From contig NZ_SMKL01000013.1 in the NCBI RefSeq assembly GCF_004348545.1, positions 1-64,000 of the forward strand: a stretch of DNA of 64,000 nucleotides. Direction: 5' to 3'. Position 1 is the first letter of the stretch; every line of letters starts with the position of its first letter. This DNA is from Jiangella ureilytica. GTDB lineage: Bacteria > Actinomycetota > Actinomycetes > Jiangellales > Jiangellaceae. Under the pieces are notes generated by a model. The model was not told where the DNA came from. It was given only the letters and a program-made list of their open reading frames with translations, and did not search any database. The translations under genes were made by a program, and so were the position numbers. Of the stretch, positions 45,295-62,711 are shown piece after piece.

Positions 45295-46887
45295 TCAGTT
45301 CGCCCAGCTGGCGAAACGCAACTGCGATTGTTCGGCCGGACTCGGCTGCCAGTCCAGATCGGCGGCCATCGCATAGAGCGCGGGCACCTGGTAGAGGAAA
45401 CCGGCCCAGGCGTGTTGCTGCAGCAGGACCTCCGCCTCCTGCAGGACCTCGATCGTGCGCTCCGGGTTCTTCGCCCAGGTGGCGACAGCCTCATCGTGCA
45501 GGGCGTCGATGTCGTCGTGGCAGCCATAGCCGGCGTGCGTCACCGAGCCCTGCACGCAGTTCACGACGTTCTGGTAGAAGTGGTAGCCGTGGAAGGTGTT
45601 TCCACCGGAGTGACCGTCGAGCATCAAAGGCCCCAGGCCAGCCGGATTGTCGTGCTTCTCCTGTTTGCGCGTGACGAAGTCCGCCGCCTCGTAGACGCGG
45701 ATCTCGGTCTGGATGCCCACCTCCGCCAGATATGACTGGATCGCCTGCGCCGCTTCCTCTGACTGCGAATAGCTCGGATACACAGAGAACTCGACCGGGC
45801 CGATCCCGTCCGGGAAACCCGCCTCGGCGAGGAGTTCCCGCGCGCGGTCCGGGTCATACTCGTACGGTTCGAGGTCGGGGTTGAACCCCAGCTCCTGGGG
45901 GACCAAGCCCGCCGGCGTGCGCACGGCTCCCGGCAGCAATTCGTCGATGATCGTGTCGACATCGATCGCGTAGTTGATCGCCTGGCGGAGCTCGAGGATG
46001 TCGAACGGCGGCTTGCGCTGGTCGATCGAGACGCGAACACGCGCCATGCTGAGTGATGGGACGACCTTCAGGGCCTCGTCGCCCTCGACCTGGTCGACCT
46101 GCACCGGGCTGAGCTGGTCGACGACGTCGACCTCGCCCGCCCGCAAGGCTGCCACCCGGGCCGCCTCGTCGGGGATCACCCGGAAGATGACGCGATCGAT
46201 CTGCGGCCGGCCGAGGAAGTAGTCGTCGAACGCCTCGAAGACGATCTCGTTGCCGCGGTCCCACTCGACCAACCGGTACGCGCCGAGGCCAGGCGCCGGT
46301 TCACGGCTGGAGTAGACCTCGTAGCCGATGTCCTCGATCCAGCTCTTCGGTGCCAGCAGCAGGCGCTCGGCGAAGAGCATCAGCAGCGGAGCCGGCTCGG
46401 AGAGGTGCAGTTCGACGTGGTAGTCGTCGATGATCCTGGTCTCCTCGACGACGAAGAAGTTCTCACCCAGTGTGCCGCCGAGGTTCGGGTGGTTCATCCG
46501 GTCGATGCTCGCCTTGAGGTCCTCGGCGGTGAAGTGGTCGCCGTTGTGGAAGGTCACGTCGTCGCGCAGCGTGATGCTCCAGACCAGCTCGTCATCGCTG
46601 AGCTCCCACTCCGTGGCGATGTGGGGGATGAGCTCCCCCGTCTCGCCGTTACGGCGGATGATGCCGTCGGTGACGTTCTGCAGGACGTTCCGGTCGATGA
46701 TGCCGGTGCCGCCCTGCGGGTCGACGGTCGACAGGTCGTCACTGATCGCGACCACCACCGTCGTCTCCTCGTCGGCGGCCGCGCCGCCCTCGTCGTCGGG
46801 CGCGTCCGACTGGCACGCGACGACGAGGAGCGCAGCGGCGGCCACGAAGGCGATGGAGCGCAGGGTTCGCACGCTGTTCTCGTGCAT
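45295..46887 (-). CDS. ABC transporter substrate-binding lipoprotein (SBP_bac_5)
   Basis: A 530-residue oligopeptide/nickel-type receptor lipoprotein (SBP family 5). A signal peptide ends in the lipobox LLVVAC (Cys at residue 25), followed by an acidic linker and the family-5 fold: DLSTVDPQGGTGIIDRNV, LRDDVTFHNGDHFTAEDLK and a C-terminal lobe. SBP5 receptors bind oligopeptides but also glycosides, opines, glutathione and aromatic or heterocyclic acids. AAGGGG lies eight bases before the ATG; a GTG two codons upstream is possible. No permease follows in this unit; the permease-permease-ATPase set at 48739-52775, in a separate unit upstream, is its likely partner. Confidence 0.93.
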   Translation of the reverse strand: MHENSVRTLRSIAFVAAAALLVVACQSDAPDDEGGAAADEETTVVVAISDDLSTVDPQGGTGIIDRNVLQNVTDGIIRRNGETGELIPHIATEWELSDDELVWSITLRDDVTFHNGDHFTAEDLKASIDRMNHPNLGGTLGENFFVVEETRIIDDYHVELHLSEPAPLLMLFAERLLLAPKSWIEDIGYEVYSSREPAPGLGAYRLVEWDRGNEIVFEAFDDYFLGRPQIDRVIFRVIPDEAARVAALRAGEVDVVDQLSPVQVDQVEGDEALKVVPSLSMARVRVSIDQRKPPFDILELRQAINYAIDVDTIIDELLPGAVRTPAGLVPQELGFNPDLEPYEYDPDRARELLAEAGFPDGIGPVEFSVYPSYSQSEEAAQAIQSYLAEVGIQTEIRVYEAADFVTRKQEKHDNPAGLGPLMLDGHSGGNTFHGYHFYQNVVNCVQGSVTHAGYGCHDDIDALHDEAVATWAKNPERTIEVLQEAEVLLQQHAWAGFLYQVPALYAMAADLDWQPSPAEQSQLRFASWAN

Positions 46888-55809: not shown

Positions 55810-57888
55810 TCACCTCATTGGGATCGGATGCGGCCCGGGGAAATGGCAGGCAACGGTGTGTTCCGAGGTGGGCGTGTACACCAGAGGCGGTTCCTGCTCG
55901 GCGCAGATCGACTGCGCCTTGAAGCAACGGGTCCGGAAGCGGCATCCCGACGGCGGATTCGCCGCGCTGGGAACCTCACCGGACAGCACGATGCGCGGGC
56001 GCTCGCCGGCGTCGACGTCGGCGACGGGGACTGCAGAGAGCAGCGCCTGCGTGTAGGGGTGCAGAGGGTTCTCGTAGACCGCGTTGTTGTCGCCGGCCTC
56101 GACCACCTTGCCGAGGTACATGACGGCGACGCGGTGCGAGATGTGGCGGACGACGGCGAGATCGTGGGCGACGAAGACGAACGCCATGTTCAGCTCGCGC
56201 TGCAGGTCCATCAGCAGGTTGATGGTCTGTGCCTGGACCGAGACGTCGAGGGCGGATACCGGCTCGTCGAGCACCAGCACGTCCGGATCGAGGATGATCG
56301 ATCGGGCGACGGCGATGCGCTGGCGTTGGCCGCCGGAGAACTCGTGCGGGTACCGGTCCGCGTCCTCAGCCCGCAGCCCCACCAGGTCGAGCACCCGACG
56401 AACGCGGTCGCGGTGCGATGGCCTCGGCGCGCCATGGATGCGCAGCGCCTCCCCGACCAGCGCGCCGACCTTCATCCTCGGGTCGAGGGAGGAGTACGGG
56501 TCCTGGAACACGATCTGCAGGCTCCTGCGCACGGACCGCAGCCGGTCGCGGTCGTACCCGGTGACGTCCTCGCCCTTGAACACGACACGGCCCTCGGTGG
56601 GGTCGACCAGCCGGACGATGGCCCGGCCGGTCGTCGTCTTCCCGCACCCGGATTCGCCGACGATGCCGAGCGTCTCGGCGCGGTGCAGCACCAGGTCGAT
56701 GCCGTCGACCGCGCGAATGGTTCCCACCGGCCGGCGTAGCACGCCGCGGACGATCGGGAAGTGGACCTTGAGCCCCTCGATCCGCAGCACCTCGTCCTGC
56801 GCCACCGCACGCCCGCCGGCGGCCTGGACCTCTGCGGCAGGGCGCGTTGCCAGGTCGGCGAACCGCTCTGCCGCGAAATGGCAGGCCGACCAGTGGGCAG
56901 GCTCGATCTGCTGCAGCGGCGGCAACTCGGTACGGCAGATCTCGCGACTACCGGCCTGATGACAGCGCGGCTGGAACGGGCAGCCGGGGGGAGTCTCGAG
57001 GGGGTCCGGCGGCCGGCCCTGGATCTGCGCGAGCTTGTCCATCCGCTCGTCGACGCGGGGTGAACTGGCGAGCAGGGCGTGAGTGTACGGGTGCCGAGGA
57101 TGGCGGAACACCTGCTCGACGTCGCCGACCTCGACCACTCGTCCGGCATACATCACCATGACGCGGTCCGCGGTCTCGGCAACGACACCCAGGTCGTGCG
57201 TGACGATGATCGCAGCCGCGCCGGTGCGCGCCTTCGCGTCCTTCAGCAGCCCCAGGATCTGGGCCTGGGTCGTGACGTCGAGAGCGGTGGTCGGCTCGTC
57301 CGCGATCAGGATGCGCGGATCGTTCGCGAGCGCCATGGCGATCATGGCTCGTTGCCGCATGCCGCCGGAGTACTGGTGCGGATACTCGTCGAGCCGCTGC
57401 TCGGGATTGGGGACGCCGACGATGCGCAGCAGTTCGGCAGCACGCTGGCGAGCGGCCTTGCGGCCGAGACCCTGCTGGTGGAACCGCAGCGACTCGACGA
57501 TCTGCGCGCCGATGCTGAGGACCGGATTGAGTGACGACATCGGATCCTGGAAGATCGTCGCGATCTCCTTGCCCTGGAGACTGCGCCGGGCGTTCGTGCG
57601 CATCGAGAGCAGGTCGCGGTCGCCGAGCCGGACCTGCCCGCCGACGACTCGTCCGTTCGGGGGCAGCAGGCCGAGGACCGACATCATCGTCACGCTCTTG
57701 CCCGAGCCGGACTCGCCGACCACTCCCAGCGTCTCGCCCGGGTAGAGGTCGAACGAGACGCCGCGCACAGCGGTCAGCCGGCCGTAGCGCGTGTCGAACC
57801 GAGTGACGAGGTCGCGCACCGAGAGCACGGGTTCCGGACCGCCGCGGTTCTTCTCGCGGCCGGTGATCGAGACGGGTTCGGCGACCAT
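55810..57888 (-). CDS. Fused double ATPase of second oligopeptide-type importer
   Basis: A 692-residue double ATPase with the same plan as the protein at 48739: Walker A GESGSGKS and GESGCGKT, signatures YSGGMRQRAMIA and FSGGQRQRIAVA, Walker B ILIADEPTTALD and VLVLDEPVSALD, and two Cys-rich C-terminal segments (PPGCPFQPRC, and PSGCRFRTRC). The ATG at 57888 lies two bases past the stop of the permease gene, so translation is coupled. It drives the permeases encoded directly upstream, with the lipoprotein at 59858 as receptor. Confidence 0.95.
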   Translation of the reverse strand: MVAEPVSITGREKNRGGPEPVLSVRDLVTRFDTRYGRLTAVRGVSFDLYPGETLGVVGESGSGKSVTMMSVLGLLPPNGRVVGGQVRLGDRDLLSMRTNARRSLQGKEIATIFQDPMSSLNPVLSIGAQIVESLRFHQQGLGRKAARQRAAELLRIVGVPNPEQRLDEYPHQYSGGMRQRAMIAMALANDPRILIADEPTTALDVTTQAQILGLLKDAKARTGAAAIIVTHDLGVVAETADRVMVMYAGRVVEVGDVEQVFRHPRHPYTHALLASSPRVDERMDKLAQIQGRPPDPLETPPGCPFQPRCHQAGSREICRTELPPLQQIEPAHWSACHFAAERFADLATRPAAEVQAAGGRAVAQDEVLRIEGLKVHFPIVRGVLRRPVGTIRAVDGIDLVLHRAETLGIVGESGCGKTTTGRAIVRLVDPTEGRVVFKGEDVTGYDRDRLRSVRRSLQIVFQDPYSSLDPRMKVGALVGEALRIHGAPRPSHRDRVRRVLDLVGLRAEDADRYPHEFSGGQRQRIAVARSIILDPDVLVLDEPVSALDVSVQAQTINLLMDLQRELNMAFVFVAHDLAVVRHISHRVAVMYLGKVVEAGDNNAVYENPLHPYTQALLSAVPVADVDAGERPRIVLSGEVPSAANPPSGCRFRTRCFKAQSICAEQEPPLVYTPTSEHTVACHFPGPHPIPMR

Positions 57889-57890
57889 GG

Positions 57891-58823
57891 CTACACCCTC
57901 TGCTTCGACTGCGGGTCGAGGACGTCGCGCAACCAGTCGCCCATCAGGTTGAAGCCCAGGACGACCAGCATGACCGCGGTTCCGGGGATGGCGGCAAGCC
58001 ACCATGCGGTGGTGATCAGCGGCTGGGCGGACCGGATCATCGAGCCCCAGCTGGCATCCGGCGGCTGCATGCCGAGCCCGAGGTAACTCAGCGAGCTCTC
58101 GGTCACGACCAGCCCTCCCATCTCCAGGCTGGCGACGACGAAGACGGTGCTGATCAGGTTGGGGATCAGATGGCGGAAGACCAGCCGCCGGTCGCTGGAG
58201 CCCAAGGCGACAGTGGCCTCGAAGAAGTCCAGCCCGCGCAATTTCAAGGTTTCGGCCCGGATCAGCCGGGCGTAGACGGCCCAGCTGGCAATGCCGAGCG
58301 CGACGGCAGTGTTCATGAACCCCGTGCCCAGGATCGTCGCGACCAGCAGAGCGCTGATCAGCAGAGGGATCGCCAGCTGCGCGTCGACCACTCGCATCAG
58401 CACGATGTCGAGGCGGCCGCCTCGGAATCCGGAGGTGATCCCGACGGTCATCCCAAGGCTGCAGCCCACGACGACACCCAGCGCGACGACGCTCAGCGAC
58501 GCCCGGCCGCCTTCGAGCACCCGGGCGAGCACGTCACGGCCGAGGTCGTCGGTGCCGAGGATGTGCAGCGTCGAACCGTCCCCGCTCTGCGACCACGGCG
58601 GCAGCAATCGGTCCGAGAGCTCCTGGGCGTTCGGATCGATGCCGAGGAGCCACGGCCCCACGATTGCGGCCAGCGCCATACCCACGACGATCACCGTGCC
58701 GATGATGCCTGTGGTGTGGCCGCGCAGGCTGCGGCGCCGGCGCCGGCCGGTAGCCGGTTCGAGCTCACCGATCGGCACGACGGGTTCGAGGTCCGCAACC
58801 CCGGCGGACTCCTGCCGGCGCAT
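57891..58823 (-). CDS. ABC importer permease, DppC/OppC type
   Basis: A 310-residue DppC/OppC-type permease. After a basic N-terminus (GRRRRRSLRGHTTG) come the first helix, a periplasmic loop with GTDDLGRDVLARVLEGGR, and the EAA loop TLKLRGLDFFEATVALGSSDRR; six helices in total. It is a paralogue of the permease at 50903. It overlaps the stop of the DppB-type permease by one base and is followed by the ATPase gene. Confidence 0.94.
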   Translation of the reverse strand: MRRQESAGVADLEPVVPIGELEPATGRRRRRSLRGHTTGIIGTVIVVGMALAAIVGPWLLGIDPNAQELSDRLLPPWSQSGDGSTLHILGTDDLGRDVLARVLEGGRASLSVVALGVVVGCSLGMTVGITSGFRGGRLDIVLMRVVDAQLAIPLLISALLVATILGTGFMNTAVALGIASWAVYARLIRAETLKLRGLDFFEATVALGSSDRRLVFRHLIPNLISTVFVVASLEMGGLVVTESSLSYLGLGMQPPDASWGSMIRSAQPLITTAWWLAAIPGTAVMLVVLGFNLMGDWLRDVLDPQSKQRV

Positions 58824-59752
58824 CAGCTGATCCTCACTCGCGGGTCGAGGACGGTGTAGATGATGTCGGTGATCAGCGTCACCAACAGCACCGACGCCGC
58901 CGTCAGTGTGACGGTGGCGAGCACCACCGGATAGTCGCGGAAGGCCATGGCCTCGGCCAGGACGCGGCCGACGCCGGGATAGGCGAAGACGGCCTCGACG
59001 ATGACCGTGCCGGCCACCAGGTCGCCGACGCGCAGTGCGATCACCGTCGTGACCGGGATCATGGCGTTGCGCAGCGCGTGCCGGCGCAGCACGGTGCGTT
59101 CCGGCAGCCCCTTGCTGCGTGCCGTCCGGACGTAGTCCTTGTTCAGCACCTCGAGCATGGCTGCTCGCGTGATTCGCATCAGCATCGGCACCACGCCGGT
59201 GGCCAGGACGATGACAGGCAGGACGAGATGTTGCCAGGTCCCGCGTCCGGTGGCCGGGACCCAGCCGAGCTGGACGGCGAACACGATGATCAGCATGATC
59301 GCCAGCCAGAAGTTGGGCAGTGAGTTCGCCGTCACCGCGCCCACCCGGGAGAGGTTGTCCAGCCAGGAGCCCGGCTTGACCGCCGCCAGCAGGCCCAGCG
59401 GCAGTGCGATCAGGACGCCGAGCAGCAGGGCGAGCAGTCCGAGCGTCAACGTCGCCGGCAGCCGCTCGGTGATCATGTCGAGCACCGGCCGTTCGTACCG
59501 CCAGGATTCGCCGAGGTCTCCGGTGAGCAGGTTGCCCATGTACGTGAGGAACTGCTGCCAGATCGGTTGGTCCAGGCCGAGCCGTTCCCGGATCGCGTCG
59601 GCCTGTTCCTGCGTACCGCCGTCCTCGCCCATCATCAGGTTGATCGGCGACCCGAGCAGGAAGAGCAGGTGGAACAGCACGATGATGAGTCCGAAGAGGG
59701 TGGCAACCGTGGCCACGACCCGCCGGCCGACGATGCCGAGGATCTCACCCAT
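58823..59752 (-). CDS. ABC importer permease, DppB/OppB type
   Basis: A 309-residue DppB/OppB-type permease with the expected first helix (VVATVATLFGLIIVLFHLLFL), the periplasmic RLGLDQPIWQQFLTYMGNLLTGDLG segment and the EAA loop LNKDYVRTARSKGLPERTV. It follows the receptor gene after 105 bases that hold a strong stem-loop (59781-59825). AGGAGCGAGG provides its ribosome-binding site. It pairs with the next permease. Confidence 0.94.
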   Translation of the reverse strand: MGEILGIVGRRVVATVATLFGLIIVLFHLLFLLGSPINLMMGEDGGTQEQADAIRERLGLDQPIWQQFLTYMGNLLTGDLGESWRYERPVLDMITERLPATLTLGLLALLLGVLIALPLGLLAAVKPGSWLDNLSRVGAVTANSLPNFWLAIMLIIVFAVQLGWVPATGRGTWQHLVLPVIVLATGVVPMLMRITRAAMLEVLNKDYVRTARSKGLPERTVLRRHALRNAMIPVTTVIALRVGDLVAGTVIVEAVFAYPGVGRVLAEAMAFRDYPVVLATVTLTAASVLLVTLITDIIYTVLDPRVRIS

Positions 59753-59857: not shown

Positions 59858-61456
59858 CTACGAAAGCCACCTCGCCCTGGCGAAGTTCAGGTTCTGTGTG
59901 GGCGTGAGGATCCAGTCGAGCGACTTCACCAGGCCGTACAGACGGGGAATCATATAGGCGAATCCGACGCCGGCGTCCTCCTGCAGGATCGCCTCCATCT
60001 CCCGGGTCTTGGCGTCCACGGCTTCGGGGTCGTCGATCCACTGGGCGATGGCTTCCGCAGCCAGTTCGTCGTAACGCGGGTTGCAATACCAGCCGCCCCA
60101 CGTGTTGGACATGGTCTCCTCGTTGCAGGTGAACCGCGTCTGATAGATCTCCATGCCGATCAACTGCTGGTTGATGCCCCAGTTGGTCGAGACCATCTGC
60201 GCGAGGGTGCGTTCCTCGGCGAGGTCCTCGACGTCGCCGCGCTCCTTGACCGACAAGGTGGCTCGGAAGCCGGCCTCTTCGAGGTACGGCAGGATGGCGG
60301 GAGCGACCTGCTCGATCTGGAAGACGCCCTTGCGCGCCCAGTACTCGACGTCGACTCCGTCCGGGTATCCCGCCTCGCCCAGCAGTTCGCGCGCCCGCTC
60401 CGGGTCGTACTCGTAGGGCTCCAGGTCGGGGTTGAACCCTCGCTCCGCGCTGCCGAGGATCGCCGGCGTGCGTTCCACCAGCCCGGCCAGCAGCTCCTCG
60501 ATGATGGTGTCCCAGTCGATGGCGTGGTTGAGCGCCTGCCGCACGCGGACGTCGTCGAATGGTGGCCGGGTCGTGTCGAGCAGAATGTAGTGGCGCGCCG
60601 AGCTGGACGTGCCGACGCCGAGTTCGGGGTCGTTCTCGAGCGACCGGTACAGCTCGAGCGGGATGTTCTGCGCGACGTGGACCTCGCCGGCCTGGTACGA
60701 CGCACCCATGGCGGCCTCGTCCGTGATGACCCGGAAGCGGAGGTCCTTGATCTCGGGAGCGCCGCCCCAGTAGTCCTCGTTCGCCTCGAGCACCAGGTGC
60801 TCGCCGGCCCGCCACTCGACCCACTTGTACGGACCCGAGCCGATCGGCGCTTCGTCGAAGCCGTCCCAGCCGACTTCCTCGATGTAGTCCTTCGGGAGGA
60901 TCGCCAGCTCGCTGGTCTCGATCAGTCCCGGAGTCGACGTGGCCGTGCGCAGAACGAGCTCGTAGTCGCCGACCACCTCGATCTCCTGGACCGTGTTCCA
61001 GAAGATGTTGATCTCGTGGCCCCCCATCTCCGGACTGAGAATGAAGTCGAGCGTGAACTTCACATCGTCCGCGGTGAGCTCCTCGCCGTTGTGGAAGGTG
61101 ACGTCGTCGCGAATCTGGATGGTCCACTCCGTCGCGTCGGCGTTCGGCTCCCAGCTGGTGAAGATCTGGGGGACCATCTCCTGCGTCTCCGGATCCTGGC
61201 CGACGTGCGAGTCGAAGACGTTGCTCAGCACGCCGAAGATCAGTGAGCTCGGCCGCTGGAGCGGATTGGCACCGGTGAGGTCCTCGGTGATCCCGACCAC
61301 GAGTTCGCGGTCGATGTCACTCGAGGCGCCATCGTCGCTGACGTCTCCACTGTCGGAGCCGCCGCAGGCAGCGAGCGGGAGCATGAGTAGCGCCGCTGTG
61401 GCTAGAGGTCCTAGCCGGCCATTTCGACGACGCTGTGGAAAGGCCTTGGCTCTCAT
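59858..61456 (-). CDS. ABC transporter substrate-binding lipoprotein (SBP_bac_5)
   Basis: A 532-residue family-5 receptor lipoprotein. The signal peptide has a basic start (RRRNGR) and ends in the lipobox LPLAAC (Cys31), followed by a Gly/Ser/Asp linker. Characteristic segments are QIRDDVTFHNGEELTADDVK near residue 97 and ALNHAIDWDTIIEELLAGLVE near 310. It is only moderately like the receptor at 45295, so the two probably bind different or differently modified ligands. GAAGGA lies seven bases before the ATG. It heads the receptor-permease-permease-ATPase-enolase-crotonase-Ldh unit, behind a small ORF. Confidence 0.94.
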   Translation of the reverse strand: MRAKAFPQRRRNGRLGPLATAALLMLPLAACGGSDSGDVSDDGASSDIDRELVVGITEDLTGANPLQRPSSLIFGVLSNVFDSHVGQDPETQEMVPQIFTSWEPNADATEWTIQIRDDVTFHNGEELTADDVKFTLDFILSPEMGGHEINIFWNTVQEIEVVGDYELVLRTATSTPGLIETSELAILPKDYIEEVGWDGFDEAPIGSGPYKWVEWRAGEHLVLEANEDYWGGAPEIKDLRFRVITDEAAMGASYQAGEVHVAQNIPLELYRSLENDPELGVGTSSSARHYILLDTTRPPFDDVRVRQALNHAIDWDTIIEELLAGLVERTPAILGSAERGFNPDLEPYEYDPERARELLGEAGYPDGVDVEYWARKGVFQIEQVAPAILPYLEEAGFRATLSVKERGDVEDLAEERTLAQMVSTNWGINQQLIGMEIYQTRFTCNEETMSNTWGGWYCNPRYDELAAEAIAQWIDDPEAVDAKTREMEAILQEDAGVGFAYMIPRLYGLVKSLDWILTPTQNLNFARARWLS

Positions 61457-61531
61457 TGAGGTAGTCCTTCTCGACGAATGACTGGGTACCGGCGCACGTT
61501 CGACGTGGCCGAGGGGAGCGCGTGCGGAAGG

Positions 61532-61675
61532 TCAGCCGGCCATCGGACGGCTCGAGAGGTCGATGACGAACGGGCCCCGGCCACGCTGGGGGAGAGTGCG
61601 CCCCCTCACGGGCCGCGAACTCATTCCGAGGAGTTCCCTGTCGGCGGCATCGAGCGGCATGGCTGTGAGTGCCAT
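61532..61675 (-). CDS. Small ORF (47 aa) leading the second importer unit
   Basis: A 47-codon frame starting at ATG 61675 with a very strong GGGGGGAGGAAG ribosome-binding site five bases upstream, and ending at TGA 61532-61534. The product begins MALTAMPLDAADRELLGM and is rich in Arg and Pro, with no signal peptide or membrane helix. It lies between the promoter at 61720-61747 and the receptor gene, 75 bases before the latter. It may encode a small protein or act as a leader peptide whose translation controls the operon. I know of no family for it. Confidence 0.5.
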   Translation of the reverse strand: MALTAMPLDAADRELLGMSSRPVRGRTLPQRGRGPFVIDLSSRPMAG

Positions 61676-61719
61676 GGCTTCCTCCCCCCGTAGCGTCCGA
61701 GGTCATCGGCGTTGTGACA

Positions 61720-61747
61720 TCATACATTAAATAGGCTGTGGGGCAAG
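61720..61747 (-). promoter_or_regulatory. Sigma-70-like promoter of the receptor unit
   Basis: On the minus strand TTGCCC (61742-61747) and TATGAT (61720-61725) are 16 bases apart in the most AT-rich stretch of the region (CCTATTTAATGTATGATGTC). The predicted start site lies about 38 bases before the small ORF. The ATGATG element is shared with the other three promoters of this gene run. The rest of 61457-61778 holds the small ORF and no other gene. Confidence 0.6.
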
Positions 61748-61778
61748 GCTGTAGCCAGGGCGTTTCAGTTTCCGAGGG

Positions 61779-62711
61779 TCATTCCCATCCGTGCGGCTCG
61801 CTCTCGAGCACGTCGAGATCGTCCAGCCGGGACTCCAGGCGCTTCATGTCGTCAAGGCTCAACCGCTCGGCGGGGAGCCGGCTGGGGCCGCACGGACGGC
61901 CCATGATCGCCATGGCCGCCTTGATCGTGGCGGGATAGCCGGTCTCGATGGCGCTGAACAGTTCTGAGATCGTCGCCTGCAACGGCCGAGCGGCGACCAG
62001 GTCGCCGGCCAGGGCGGCGTCGGCGAGGCGGCGGACCAGCCGGGGTGCCACCCCGCCGCAGGCGGAGAAGCAGCCGGCACCGCCGATCGCCGCGGCAGGG
62101 AGGACGTATTCCACGCCTGAGAACACCGCGAAGCCGGGCCGCAGCGACGCACCCACCCTGCACACCTCGGTGAAGTACTTCATCGTCAGGCTGGCGTCCT
62201 TGAGTCCTACGAAGTTCGGACTCGTCGCGATCACCTCTGCGACGACCTCGGGTGACACCGTCACGCCGATCCGTTCCGGGTAGTTGTAACCGATGACCTG
62301 GCCGGCGGTCGCTGCCGCAACAGCGGTGAAGTGCTCGACGAGTGCGGCCGGCGATGGACGCCAGTGGTATGGCGGGGTCACGACGACGCCAGCGGCTCCC
62401 GCGGCGATCGCGTGCCGTGCCAGGGCGATGGTCAGCTCGGTCCCGGGCGTACTGACGTGCGCGTACAGCGGAGTCGCAGGATCCAGGGTCTGTGCGGCGA
62501 TTTCGACGAGCCGGCGGCGCTCGGCGTCGGAGAGCTTCAGGCTTTCCCCGATGTGCATGGGGACGGCGACGTGGTCGGCGCCCTCGCGAACCAGGAACCG
62601 GAGCAGTCGCGCGAACGTCGCATCGTCGATCCGGCCGTCGGCGGTCAGCGGTGTCACCGGGCTCGCGACGACACCGGAGAGCAGCGGTCGCACCGGAACC
62701 CCCGTCGTCAC
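61779..62711 (-). CDS. DapA/dihydrodipicolinate synthase family aldolase-lyase
   Basis: A 310-residue TIM-barrel enzyme of the DHDPS/N-acetylneuraminate lyase family, which forms a Schiff base with a 2-oxo acid, usually pyruvate. The Schiff-base Lys is K171 (FVGLKDAS) and the catalytic Tyr is Y142 (IGYNYPERIG). The usual G-T-T/S-G-E loop is changed to HIGESLKL near residue 53, which suggests a substrate other than aspartate semialdehyde, such as a sugar acid or an aromatic ring-cleavage product. The GTG at 62711 overlaps the stop of the NMT1-like gene (GTGA). With an Ldh-family enzyme and a FAH-family enzyme in the same run, production or use of pyruvate is likely. Confidence 0.9.
   Translation of the reverse strand: MTTGVPVRPLLSGVVASPVTPLTADGRIDDATFARLLRFLVREGADHVAVPMHIGESLKLSDAERRRLVEIAAQTLDPATPLYAHVSTPGTELTIALARHAIAAGAAGVVVTPPYHWRPSPAALVEHFTAVAAATAGQVIGYNYPERIGVTVSPEVVAEVIATSPNFVGLKDASLTMKYFTEVCRVGASLRPGFAVFSGVEYVLPAAAIGGAGCFSACGGVAPRLVRRLADAALAGDLVAARPLQATISELFSAIETGYPATIKAAMAIMGRPCGPSRLPAERLSLDDMKRLESRLDDLDVLESEPHGWE

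Follow-up and report, generated by a model that had tools for sequence, protein, structure and literature searches.

A short open reading frame with an unusually strong start signal in the leader of a putatively GntR/FCD-controlled importer operon of Jiangella ureilytica

The first 64,000 nucleotides of a contig of Jiangella ureilytica, the whole stretch that was analyzed and that is called the window here, contain the genes of a peptide-type ABC importer, which would take up nutrients. Upstream of its receptor gene, a 47-codon open reading frame (the upstream ORF) starts behind a ribosome-binding site that comes close to the ideal sequence. This raises the question whether the upstream ORF is translated and, if so, whether its product or its translation serves the importer. 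The initial annotation had suggested either a small protein or a leader peptide that couples translation to the expression of the importer. The host is a probable soil actinobacterium. The features of the locus are collected in Table 1. The N-terminus of the receptor is lipoprotein-like, as judged by eye, and the 731-codon ATPase gene contains ABC ATPase and oligo_HPY stretches, two of each, i.e. both importer ATPases in one protein. Besides the DHDPS-family gene, an NMT1-like binding protein is also encoded upstream of the receptor gene.

Table 1. Features of the receptor leader and its surroundings (positions in the window; those beyond its end are given on contig C44).
Feature	Position	Strand	Remarks
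Upstream ORF (MALTAMPLDAADRELLGMSSRPVRGRTLPQRGRGPFVIDLSSRPMAG)	61532..61675	-	47 codons; ATG 61675-61673, TGA 61534-61532
Ribosome-binding site of the upstream ORF, GGGGGGAGGAAG	61689-61678	-	read from the sequence
GGAGG core of this site	61681..61685	-	5 nt (AAGCC) before the ATG
Spacer, 75 nt	61457..61531	-	C-rich (31 C, 18 G); CCTTC at 61531-61527 is a possible pairing partner of the receptor SD
Receptor ribosome-binding site GAAGGA	61465..61470	-	8 nt before the receptor ATG; weaker than that of the upstream ORF
Receptor, substrate-binding protein (SBP family 5)	59858..61456	-	Pfam SBP_bac_5, E 3.4e-79
Permease	58823-59752	-	same importer
Permease	57891-58823	-	same importer
ATPase, two ABC domains	55810-58005	-	same importer
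DHDPS-family aldolase/lyase	61779..62711	-	upstream gene; ends just before the promoter
Sigma-70-like promoter TTGCCC-16-TATGAT	61719..61746	-	predicted
Putative operator TGTATGATG	61718..61726	-	word positions; overlaps the -10 box
GntR/FCD regulator gene	C44:64997-65707		FCD and GntR domains; beyond the window end, about 3.3 kb from the promoter
Divergent DHDPS-family gene	from C44:65961		separated by 253 bases from the GntR/FCD regulator gene

The geometry described in the initial annotation could be confirmed in the sequence. This holds for the start codon, the length, the stop codon, the distance of exactly 75 bases between the stop and the receptor ATG (61456) and the five-base spacing to the start, which is counted from the GGAGG core. 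On the minus strand, the sequence before the start reads GGGGGGAGGAAGCC-ATG. Pairing of this site with the anti-SD sequence was calculated as -14.1 kcal/mol, compared with -6.3 kcal/mol for the SD of the receptor gene itself. As the reference for these values, a home-made gene set that lacks short genes was used. It comprises 190 model genes, all frames with a length of 150 codons or more, from 263 kb of this genome (the 111-kb contig C44 and ten other contigs), and the codon model was trained on it as well; the median of the model genes at their first starts was -6.05. A pairing at least as strong as that of the upstream ORF was found in 4.2% of the 190 model genes at the first possible start and in 7.4% when the best start in the first 40 codons was taken, which agrees with the claim that most real genes have weaker ribosome-binding sites.

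Starts of this kind were rare in shuffled leaders. Dinucleotide shuffling of the 255-nt leader was performed 2000 times, GGAGG was required 4-10 nt before the start, and ORFs were counted if they did not extend more than 4 bases into the receptor gene. An ATG-initiated ORF of at least 40 codons with GGAGG was observed in 5 of the 2000 shuffles, and in none of them when an energy as strong as -14.1 kcal/mol was also demanded; looser criteria (GGAGG before an ATG or GTG that opens at least 20 codons) were matched in 35 of 2000. Among the 38 upstream gaps of 100-500 bases, scanned over at most the last 255 bases of each, only the one before the receptor gene contained a GGAGG-preceded ORF of at least 20 codons. 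By these counts, the start signal of the upstream ORF is unusually strong and exceeds chance.

A promoter-like site was also found upstream, in line with the good promoter of the initial annotation. The sigma-70-like site is the only promoter-like site in 61300-61900, compared with a mean of 0.0 (sd 0.2) in 50 shuffles. Transcription would start near 61711, which would give a leader of about 255 nt. The 9-mer that overlaps the -10 box, chosen after it had been seen, is present in four exact copies in the genome of 6,345,964 bases, and all four are located on C44, which makes up 1.75% of the genome. Two of the other copies (at 65739 and 65950) lie in the 253-base region between the GntR/FCD regulator gene and the divergent DHDPS-family gene, and one (at 95573) is flanked by a short-chain dehydrogenase gene and, from 95614, by another divergent gene of the DHDPS family. 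When one mismatch was allowed, 99 sites were found versus 79 for the reversed control word, and therefore only the exact word is informative.

In transport operons with FadR-type (GntR/FCD) regulators, a short word is repeated in the upstream region of the regulator itself and at the transporter promoter. The present locus is alike in that TGTATGATG is repeated at the regulator and at the importer promoter, with an FCD regulator nearby, and the word was considered a putative operator. Judged from the positions of its copies, it is probably the operator of the regulator encoded at C44:64997-65707. Besides the region of its own gene, this regulator would control the importer and, at 95.6 kb, the gene pair there; it would probably act as a repressor that covers the -10 box. 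In the same-family genome G012, the exact word was absent from the retrieved loci of both regulator homologs (42-45%); at one of these loci, TCATACA and TGTATGA occur with a separation of 15 bases, at a site about 1.4 kb ahead of the match to the regulator. A second GntR/FCD gene on C44 (74029-74670, minus strand) has no exact copy of the word beside it. Within the limited literature searched, no report was found that combines the 8-mer TGTATGAT with 'GntR' and 'operator'.

Because its start is unusually strong and is placed between a credible promoter and the receptor gene, it is plausible that the upstream ORF is translated. The preferred reading, to which a probability of about 0.5 is given, is that it represents a translated and non-conserved leader ORF of a GntR-controlled importer mRNA. 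Transcription would start at the promoter whose -10 box sits in the putative operator of the neighboring GntR/FCD regulator. Ribosomes would enter at the strong start of the upstream ORF, read through its 47 codons and terminate at a distance of 75 nt from the receptor gene, for which a weaker site of its own is present. What matters would be that the ORF is translated and not which peptide results, and its translation may help or tune the expression of the importer. Rho may be kept off the leader by the ribosomes on it, and these may also prevent its folding; as far as base counts alone can indicate, shielding from Rho is compatible with the C-rich spacer.

The strongest competing explanation is that a G-rich, SD-like stretch happens to precede a random open frame, which would have no role even if it were sometimes translated. 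The low counts in the shuffles and the placement between the promoter-like site and the first gene of the operon argue against this, but the chance expectation rises once the selection of the ORF is considered. The upstream ORF was picked for its looks and a correction for the 38 gaps was therefore applied, after which the 5 in 2000 become about 0.1 by our own arithmetic. Its length says little, because the GC content is 72%, at which roughly 45% of random frames would reach 46 codons (also our own arithmetic). Outside the frames of the model genes, 6054 ATG/GTG starts were counted; 14 of them, the upstream ORF included, combine an ATG and GGAGG with a frame of 40 codons or more. Eight of these 14 were located in stretches not covered by the model, and four of the eight (137-500 codons) are probably genes that the model missed.

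Codon use also leaves room for a chance origin. The codon score of the upstream ORF, -1.6, was the best among the six frames there and slightly below background; when model genes were cut into pieces of 47 codons, 94% scored higher, and 24% of the pieces from shadow frames reached its value. The codon signal is thus neutral and no better than a GC-matched background. Together with the lack of peptide homologs described below, this makes a chance ORF a substantial possibility, though one held to fall short of even odds.

Searches with the peptide gave no match at E values up to 1 in NCBIfam, Pfam, PHROGs, PDB and phages, and only three matches (E 4 to 9) in plasmids; the 401-bp leader region had no match in plasmids. 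In 84 of 98 relatives a match with an E value up to 1 was obtained, the best being 0.008, and none was convincing. Among the matches listed, most were located in much longer frames or contained stops. Seven matches in short frames (L067-L071, L020 and L030) were inspected separately: no ATG, GTG or TTG start with a pairing near -14.1 was present (best -9.2), most had no start from which the frame would span the match, and several were located inside coding-like frames, and they were taken as chance. When 392 other genomes of the class were searched, a set that overlaps the 98 relatives and in which at most 18 candidates per genome were scored, four matches with E values of 0.0007-0.002 were obtained. 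These are unremarkable, because so many searches are expected to give about that E value. The most tempting of the four, at L060, shares 14 of 21 residues but runs into a stop; it is out of frame inside a 431-codon frame on the same strand, which by eye we take to be sulfotransferase-like, and it was rejected. Since no relatives of the peptide were found, the upstream ORF is most likely an ordinary uORF. In the limited literature searched, as far as the sources were accessible, the combination of Jiangella and 'leader peptide' returned lanthipeptides only.

A genuine small protein with a role alongside the importer, a specific form of the first proposal of the initial annotation, would fit the strong start signal and the importer context. 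It did not gain support from the searches or from codon use, since no family or homolog was identified and the codon signal did not rise above the background. In addition, no hydrophobic stretch was seen by eye in the 47 residues, and there is no counterpart before the two paralogs of the receptor gene on C44. These paralogs, with about 40% identity (matches at 45304-46845 and 77010-78572), are preceded by gaps of 60 and 91 bases, which are too short for such an ORF. A small protein of this kind is considered quite unlikely.

The three related receptor genes (45304-46845, 59858-61456 and C44:77010-78572) are found within 34 kb, surrounded by genes of catabolic families (DHDPS, enoyl-CoA hydratase, mandelate racemase-like, and malate/lactate dehydrogenase 2). 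Orthologs of the receptor were searched for in family, class and phylum genome sets, which overlap and from which the own genome was left out. None was found in 21 other genomes of the family at E 1e-60, in 392 other genomes of the class at 1e-95 or in 395 other genomes of the phylum at 1e-70, with at most three candidates per genome scored in the class and phylum sets. At these thresholds, the sets thus yielded no relative that retains the operon, with which the initial annotation had proposed to compare the frame. The DHDPS neighbor was likewise absent from the 21 other family genomes at 1e-40. A search of the genome contigs for the receptor revealed three distant loci with 26-32% identity, and 4151 plasmid records contained a match, with 27.6-33.5% identity among the 30 matches listed; all of these are too remote for a comparison of leaders. 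The absence of the receptor at E 1e-60 from the 21 other family genomes suggests that the region of the three receptors was acquired. It would be conceivable that a lineage-restricted 47-residue peptide without a known relative, controlled by GntR together with the importer, is itself a regulator or partner of the importer in a recently acquired catabolic region; this is regarded as very unlikely.

In one specific form of the second proposal, coupling of translation, ribosomes that reach the stop of the upstream ORF would open a CCUUC-GAAGG pairing and thereby free the receptor SD, as for mgtQ and mgtB (see below). Indeed, the CCUUC directly after the stop is predicted to pair with the receptor GAAGG with a probability of about 0.83, the same pairing is predicted when the 106 nt are folded alone, and an equally closed receptor SD was seen in 20% of 150 shuffles. 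However, simulated ribosomes over the ORF or its stop raised the mean openness of the receptor SD from 0.30 to only 0.33-0.35. The gain with ribosomes over the ORF, to 0.33, was equalled or exceeded in 73 of the 150 shuffles, and the mean gain in shuffles was 0.08. The opening thus does not surpass that of shuffled leaders. For reinitiation, a distance of 75 nt is long, and the receptor gene has its own SD. The claimed coupling did not gain support, and unmasking of the receptor SD is regarded as very unlikely. From the leader-ORF interpretation as a whole, a translated ORF is retained as plausible, whereas a functional protein and coupling did not gain support.

The folding of the leader is ordinary, with z values of 0.03 (280 nt) and -0.91 (106 nt) compared with shuffles. 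No terminator-like site was found in 61300-61900 and no run of one residue was seen by eye in the peptide; with the z value of 0.03, these results argue against an attenuator leader peptide. In the window, no Rfam match reached the gathering score, and the two sub-threshold matches near the upstream ORF had E values of 0.65 and 1.4. These results do not support a riboswitch with a uORF in the leader.

Translated uORFs that affect the downstream gene are described for the metE and ppe2 leaders of M. tuberculosis, and removal of the SD motif or the start codon of the ppe2 uORF severely lowered expression, according to the accessible part of that report (PMC11260477). Stop-codon constructs indicated a tight coupling of stop and start at ppe2 and argued against Rho as the cause (PMC11260477, same part). 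The receptor leader is alike in that a short ORF precedes the main gene in an actinobacterial mRNA leader. In the ppe2 case, however, as far as the same part of the source describes it, the uORF overlaps the gene (AUGA), ppe2 has no SD and riboswitches are present (PMC11260477), whereas here the two frames are 75 nt apart, the receptor gene has an SD and no Rfam family was found at the cut-off. The rv1805A uORF before pe20 of M. tuberculosis is highly conserved and riboswitch-controlled in the portion of the source available (PMC12810186). Both are small ORFs in an operon leader, but for the one before the receptor gene no homolog or riboswitch match was found. In the Salmonella mgtCBRU operon, mgtQ is an 8-codon ORF between two genes that releases the SD of mgtB, which is hidden by a tested stem-loop, again as given in the accessible part of the report (PMC8092293). 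The likeness lies in a short ORF just before a transporter gene and a possible pairing that hides the downstream SD, and the difference in the predicted opening effect, which for the upstream ORF is not above that in shuffles. Thus, only the layout is shared with the ppe2, rv1805A and mgtQ cases.

Taken together, a functional peptide has no support, and the upstream ORF is probably translated but non-conserved. If it is untranslated, the locus would illustrate how little a strong SD-ATG says by itself in a genome of 72% GC. If it is translated, it would be one more uORF in the leader of an actinobacterial transporter, missed by annotation based on homology and codon use, and the putative GntR/FCD operator may serve as a handle for switching the operon on.
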